Below are positions 2,798 through 3,049 of a stretch of 5,418 nucleotides of DNA, piece by piece. The notes beneath the pieces were generated by a model that did no database searches, was not told where the DNA came from, and saw only the letters and a program-made list of their open reading frames with translations. Location of the stretch: the NCBI GenBank assembly GCA_937981305.1, contig CALJPB010000193.1, positions 1 to 5,418 of the forward strand. Direction: 5' to 3'. Position numbers and translations under genes: made by a program. Within the stretch, counting starts at the first letter, position 1, and every line of letters begins with the position of its first letter. This DNA is from an uncultured Selenomonas sp. (GTDB lineage Bacteria; Bacillota; Negativicutes; Selenomonadales; Selenomonadaceae).

Positions 2798-3049
2798 ATG
2801 GAAAACGCAATCATGGTCGCAGGCGCTCTTATCGGTGCGGGTCTCTGCTTTGGTCTTGCCGCGATCGGCGCGGGCATCGGCGACGGTCTTGTTACGGGCC
2901 GCTTCATCGAGGGTTTGGCACGTCAGCCGGAGGCGGGCGGCGTTCTCTTTACGCGTACACTGATCTCGGTCGGTCTGATCGAGGCTCTTGCCATCATCGG
3001 CGTCGTTTTCGGTATCATCATGCTCTATGCAAATCCGCTGATTAAGTAA
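2798..3049 (+). CDS. atpE: ATP synthase F0 subunit c (rotor ring proteolipid), 83 aa
   Basis: Copies of this two-helix hairpin form the rotor ring that carries the coupling ion past subunit a. Helix 1 (about 4-34) carries the glycine motif GAGIGDG at 24-30, which packs neighbouring helices. The polar loop ARQPEA (41-46) contacts gamma/epsilon. Helix 2 (about 49-77) holds the ion-carrying Glu62 in [12 protein letters not shown] and ends LYANP. Glu62 equals Glu65 of Ilyobacter and Asp61 of E. coli. Two features stand out. Asp29 occupies the place of Gln32 of Na+-type c subunits (33 residues before the Glu, as there). The Na+-ligand Ser after the Glu is Ala63. The missing Ser argues for H+ coupling, while a helix-1 carboxylate recalls the Fusobacterium two-carboxylate rotor. 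Its SD is the strongest in the window. A 39-bp gap leads to atpF. Confidence 0.98.

Follow-up and report, generated by a model that had tools for sequence, protein, structure and literature searches.

Described c-rings with a second carboxylate include the Na+ c11 ring of Fusobacterium nucleatum (Protein Data Bank (PDB) entry 3zk1), with Glu32, Ser66, Thr67 and Tyr70 (available portion of PMC3692424), and the N-type c17 ring of Burkholderia pseudomallei, which pairs Glu30 with Glu61 next to Thr62, Met63 and Tyr66 and was measured to be H+-specific, its second carboxyl being taken as always protonated (PMC5376962, in the part available). They also include the mycobacterial ring, a c9 ring according to a figure legend in the excerpted PMC5874750. 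In the accessible text of Schulz et al. 2013 (PMC3692424), the second carboxyl is considered to be protonated constitutively and to behave largely as Gln or Asn would, and the same is expected of the H+-driven double-carboxylate synthases of Streptococcus pneumoniae and Mycobacterium tuberculosis, with two protons bound per site and one transported. Here we compare with these systems AtpE, the subunit c encoded in a 5,418-nucleotide stretch of DNA from an uncultured Selenomonas sp. of the Negativicutes (assembly GCA_937981305.1, contig CALJPB010000193.1, positions 1 to 5,418 of the forward strand), the whole of which we call the window. An earlier note on this DNA had seen in AtpE a second carboxylate, Asp29, without the serine of Na+ rings, and had suggested a distinct version of the binding site, perhaps H+-coupled or a weak Na+ site. 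Judging from its residues, AtpE is very probably an H+ rotor with a site of the mycobacterial type, in which Asp29 would be a protonated hydrogen-bond partner and Glu62 would carry one proton per step; the site is likely no new kind of ion site.

AtpE has the properties of an F-type subunit c: a match to the Pfam family PF00137 at 60.8 bits (cut-off 24), a predicted two-helix hairpin (mean predicted local distance difference test score 94.1; helices 2-42 and 44-78), an RQP loop, a carboxylate in helix 2 and a place within an atp operon. The gene and the codons of its ion site are as follows:

2798..3049, + strand: atpE, F-type ATP synthase subunit c, 83 amino acids (PF00137, predicted hairpin)
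2882..2884, + strand: codon GAC of Asp29, the second carboxylate, aligned with the Asp of mycobacterial c subunits
2981..2983, + strand: codon GAG of Glu62, the ion-carrying carboxylate, Glu in 88 of 88 matches from the class sample described below
2984..2986, + strand: codon GCT of Ala63, at the position of the Na+-ligand Ser66 of Ilyobacter tartaricus and F. nucleatum
2987..2989, + strand: codon of Leu64, at the position of the polar residue 67 of Na+ rings
2996..2998, + strand: codon of Ile67, at the position of Tyr70 of Na+ rings

The codons confirm that Asp29 lies exactly 33 residues before Glu62, at the coordinates first assigned to it and at the position of Gln32 in I. tartaricus and of Glu32 in F. 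nucleatum, so that AtpE has the residues of a two-carboxylate c-ring. The best matches in both sequence and structure are the mycobacterial c-rings (PDB 7jg5, 4v1f, 8j57 and 9vks). At about 49-55% identity, AtpE shares with them the aspartate 33 residues before the glutamate, the alanine after it, an isoleucine at the Tyr70 position, the GAGIGDG motif and the hairpin, whereas Leu64-Ala65-Ile66 stands against Ala-Tyr-Phe in the mycobacterial sequences. The Asp/Glu/Ala combination at the three site positions is thus that of the mycobacterial type, and the alignment with mycobacterial Asp32 supports the assignment of Asp29 as a second carboxylate, located in helix 1 where the ion site lies. Of the earlier suggestion, the H+-coupled site has come out as the likeliest, but the distinct new version is not supported, the same residues being present in mycobacterial rings.

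Asp29 would face Glu62, stay protonated and act much as an asparagine would, as a hydrogen-bond partner, possibly by way of a bound water; Glu62 would then likely carry one proton per step, with H+ as the coupling ion. The mycobacterial counterpart takes part in a water-mediated Asp32 bonding network in drug binding (available part of PMC8873251) and is named beside Glu65 at the drug site in a figure legend (PMC5874750, in excerpt), and in M. tuberculosis, substitutions at the homologous residue 28 occur in isolates of reduced drug susceptibility (PMC7148535, as far as the text is accessible). For the Negativicutes themselves, we found no report on the coupling ion of a c-ring in the titles and abstract openings among the matches listed.

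The serine missing from the site was not the only absence. The ligand set of Na+ rings (residues 32, 66, 67 and 70, as defined in the available parts of PMC2359735 and PMC3692424) has Gln or Glu at 32, where AtpE has Asp29; Ser or Thr after the glutamate (Ser66), where it has Ala63; and a polar residue 67 with Tyr70, where it has Leu64 and Ile67. Since Ser63, the tyrosine and any polar side chain at 64 are all missing, the side-chain hydroxyls on which a Na+ ring relies are absent from the site. We therefore rejected a Na+ ring as defined by this set, which fails at Ala63, Leu64 and Ile67. A ring that is Na+-coupled or promiscuous by other means, in which Na+ would be held by Asp29 and Glu62 together with water and a backbone carbonyl instead of the serine, is a separate proposal. 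The two-carboxylate Na+ ring of F. nucleatum speaks for it, with its second carboxylate at the same place as Asp29, but that ring has Glu, Ser, Thr and Tyr where AtpE has Asp, Ala, Leu and Ile; the mycobacterial rings, with the same site residues as AtpE, are treated as H+-driven (PMC3692424, in the portion available), and the B. pseudomallei ring is H+-specific even with its threonine and tyrosine (excerpt of PMC5376962).

Asp29 is neither a private variant nor a sequencing error. Centipeda periodontii, Selenomonas massiliensis, S. infelix, S. noxia, S. artemidis and Selenomonas sp. F0473 have identical Asp29/Glu62/Ala63 with only synonymous codon differences, which argues against an error, and the relatives' loci and the homologues rule out both. 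In the best 80 of 302 relatives' loci, residues 29/62/63 are Asp/Glu/Ala in 59, Asp/Glu/Ser in 16 and Asn/Glu/Ala in five, giving Asp29 in 75 of 80. Among the 120 listed of 1111 homologues, Glu62 is found in every one, position 29 is Asp in 118 with one Asn and one Gly, and residue 63 is almost evenly divided (Ala 60, Ser 59, Pro 1).

An alignment across the Negativicutes had been proposed as a check. From this class, 80 evenly drawn genomes of unstated completeness yielded 88 subunit c matches with an invariant Glu62, and the pairs at 29/63 were Asp/Ser (44), Asp/Ala (15), Asn/Ala (15), Asn/Ser (8), Gln/Ser (2), Glu/Ser (2) and Ile/Val (2); position 29 is accordingly Asp in 59 of 88 and Asn in 23 of 88. 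Clustering at 90% identity, which covered 79 of the 88 (nine scored under 130), gave 44 clusters, 30 with Asp29, 13 with Asn and one with Gln. Rings of other Negativicutes (Selenomonas, Mitsuokella, Veillonella, Propionispira and Pectinatus) belong to the same family and nearly always have Asp or Asn at 29, many of them with Ser63, and all four combinations of Asp or Asn29 with Ala or Ser63 are present in the class.

A permanently protonated Asp29 should be replaceable by asparagine, a prediction that can be followed on a tree of subunit a. Starting from 161 rows, thinning (rows of equal state at 90% identity, together with a limit on length) left 93, four of them outside the class (L071, L073, L076 and L077); six of the 88 class matches (four second rings bearing a tyrosine and two without a recognised subunit a) and two of the 80 relatives' loci were not placed on the tree. 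The Asp/Asn and Ala/Ser counts were made on 91 rows (71 Asp, 20 Asn), without the two Ile/Val rows. Position 29 changed between Asp and Asn at least 11 times (minimum 15 and mean 18.3 in 60 shuffles) and position 63 between Ala and Ser at least 17 times (minimum 24, mean 30.5), numbers that are rough since the tree is a quick one with 31 of its 90 inner branches open; six independent, well-supported pairs were found for position 29 and six supported pairs for position 63. Changes are frequent at both positions, if fewer than chance would give, and the recurrent ones between Asp and Asn fall mostly within the Negativicutes. Joint change at the two positions was not clear, with six pairs each way mostly not differing (sign test, median p 0.5), and no residue of subunit a convincingly tracked Asp/Asn29, the highest mutual information being 0.27 bits.

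The repeated replacement of Asp29 by an asparagine, which does not titrate, bears on the proposal that Asp29 titrates in use, either as a pH sensor or by moving a second proton at each step. The proposal has a precedent in Escherichia coli, where mutants with an added carboxyl were pH-dependent and a role as high-pH sensor was proposed, but the same data have been recast as a shift in pKa, the extra carboxyl being protonated throughout (both in the available text of PMC3692424), and we find titration of Asp29 hardly credible.

Asp29 lies within the glycine motif of helix 1, and it could be argued that it merely serves helix packing and makes no contact with Glu62. The class sample contains rings that speak to this: among the 87 matches with a readable motif (that of L165 was unreadable and was not counted), 13 have no more than one glycine left at the four helix-1 positions (24, 26, 28 and 30), namely L154-L157, L160-L163, L168 and L170-L173, and yet ten of the 13 retain Asp29, the others having Asn (one) and Ile (two). 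The homologous Glu32 of F. nucleatum, moreover, coordinates Na+ beside Glu65 (PMC3692424, accessible part), and the drug-site figure shows mycobacterial Asp32 next to Glu65 (PMC5874750, same excerpt), so a mere packing role appears most improbable. Ring size in the glycine-poor rings may differ. Three of the 13 (L154, L170 and L171) come from a single genome, G067, which has three genes for subunit c; for two of these, no subunit a is recognisable within 3 kb on either side.

Among genes related to Na+ bioenergetics, those of the OadB family (PF03977), which we take to be a Na+-pump subunit, are found in 62 of the 80 class genomes, and those of the Rnf/Nqr family (PF03116) in 34 of 80; C. periodontii, S. 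massiliensis, S. infelix and S. noxia all have OadB above the cut-off, and none of the four has a match to PF03116. Fisher tests on 78 genomes, the two Ile/Val genomes being omitted, gave Rnf/Nqr genes in 28 of 55 Asp29 genomes versus six of 23 Asn29 genomes (p 0.0498, one of four tests and uncorrected for kinship), the opposite direction for OadB (39 of 55 versus 21 of 23, p 0.076), and no association of residue 63 with OadB (p 0.41) or Rnf (p 0.065). In kinship-corrected pairs, neither 29 nor 63 was linked with OadB or Rnf/Nqr genes, but of the five or six supported pairs, those that differ in the second trait are too few to reach 0.05, and the absence of a link is unproven.

Several of these observations weigh against an H+ rotor of the mycobacterial type. 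The OadB-family gene in four near relatives means that a Na+ gradient may exist, and the uncorrected Rnf/Nqr difference favours Asp29 genomes; Ser63 is present in about half of the close homologues listed, so that whatever conserved role Asp29 has may be independent of Ala63; compared with the Glu32 of F. nucleatum, aspartate lacks one carbon, and the geometry may differ accordingly; and the predicted structure is that of a monomer. The frequency of Ser63 among close relatives, and that of OadB-family genes in the class together with their presence in the four relatives, likewise lends something to Na+ coupling or promiscuity. Against this stand the residues at the hydroxyl and polar positions and, as a weak test, the missing kinship-corrected link, and the present analysis gave no positive support for the weak Na+ site once suggested for AtpE; we regard Na+ coupling or promiscuity as very unlikely. 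A broader idea is that the Negativicutes rotors form a natural titration series, with the four 29/63 combinations lacking the tyrosine, and that Asp29-Ser63 or even Asp29-Ala63 rings are tuned to switching between H+ and Na+ in cells with Na+-pumping decarboxylases; this, too, we consider quite unlikely.

A different kind of ring was seen in four class genomes (G020, G032, G041 and G052), which have, beside a main ring with Asp29, a second c subunit (L164, L166, L167 and L169) with Gln or Glu29, Glu62, Ser63 and Tyr67; position 64 is polar (Thr) in one of the four. In their residues these second rings resemble both Na+ rings and the N-type ring, and since the N-type ring of PMC5376962 (in the part available) is H+-specific, they may carry either Na+ or H+.

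The remaining features of the operon in the window are these:

1890..2567, + strand: atpB, subunit a (PF00119)
2376..2378, + strand: codon of the conserved Arg163 of AtpB, in the motif SFRLFGN
3089..3613, + strand: atpF, subunit b (PF00430)
3607..4146, + strand: atpH, subunit delta (PF00213)
4164..5417, + strand: atpA, subunit alpha, cut by the window end (PF00006, PF02874, PF00306)

The order atpB-atpE-atpF-atpH-atpA, all on the + strand, is presumably that of a plain F-type operon and not of an N-type one, and for Arg163 we assume the customary role. In its operon as in its site residues, AtpE is unlike the B. pseudomallei ring, which comes from an N-type operon (available text of PMC5376962). 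Immediately 5' of atpB is an open reading frame (1248-1841) without a Pfam match at 1e-3. Its location is, we presume, that of atpI. Further upstream are a gene pair for a YefM/Phd-type antitoxin (127-468) and a YoeB-type toxin (461-718), and an 86-amino-acid frame on the - strand (751-1011), for which Pfam likewise gave no match at 1e-3.

The nearest relatives lack an insert (approximately 2560-2725) that the window carries between atpB and atpE, the match breaking at 2552-2559 and 2717-2732. From 2717 or 2732 to the end, identity is 95.7% over 2709 bases to S. massiliensis, 95.6% over 2689 to S. infelix and 94.2% over 2710 to C. periodontii; before the insert, it is 88.7 to 94.2% to the same three. 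These are the closest matches among the sequences compared, and they place the window in a relative of oral Selenomonas. A 111-nucleotide palindromic core (approximately 2577-2687) forms a single long hairpin when folded (-37.3 kcal/mol, z -6.3) and is a high-copy repeat like repetitive extragenic palindromes or miniature inverted-repeat transposable elements. A search with 2548-2717 found at least 40 copies each in C. periodontii, S. massiliensis and S. infelix, seven in S. noxia, two each in Selenomonas sp. F0473 and Mitsuokella oral taxon 131, and none in S. artemidis, S. ruminantium or M. multacida. Ten copies align with the core at 78 to 90%; the 20-nucleotide terminal arms in the window lie outside the shared core, which gives no ground for counting them as part of it. 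Rfam gave nothing at gathering score anywhere in the window, the repeat included, the phage collection held no match to the repeat, and no report of it was found among the literature matches listed.

Overall, the suspected new ion site has residues already known from the mycobacterial type, and that type is common in Negativicutes. With four natural combinations at positions 29 and 63 in one class, the published ideas on the second carboxyl become testable on natural rings.
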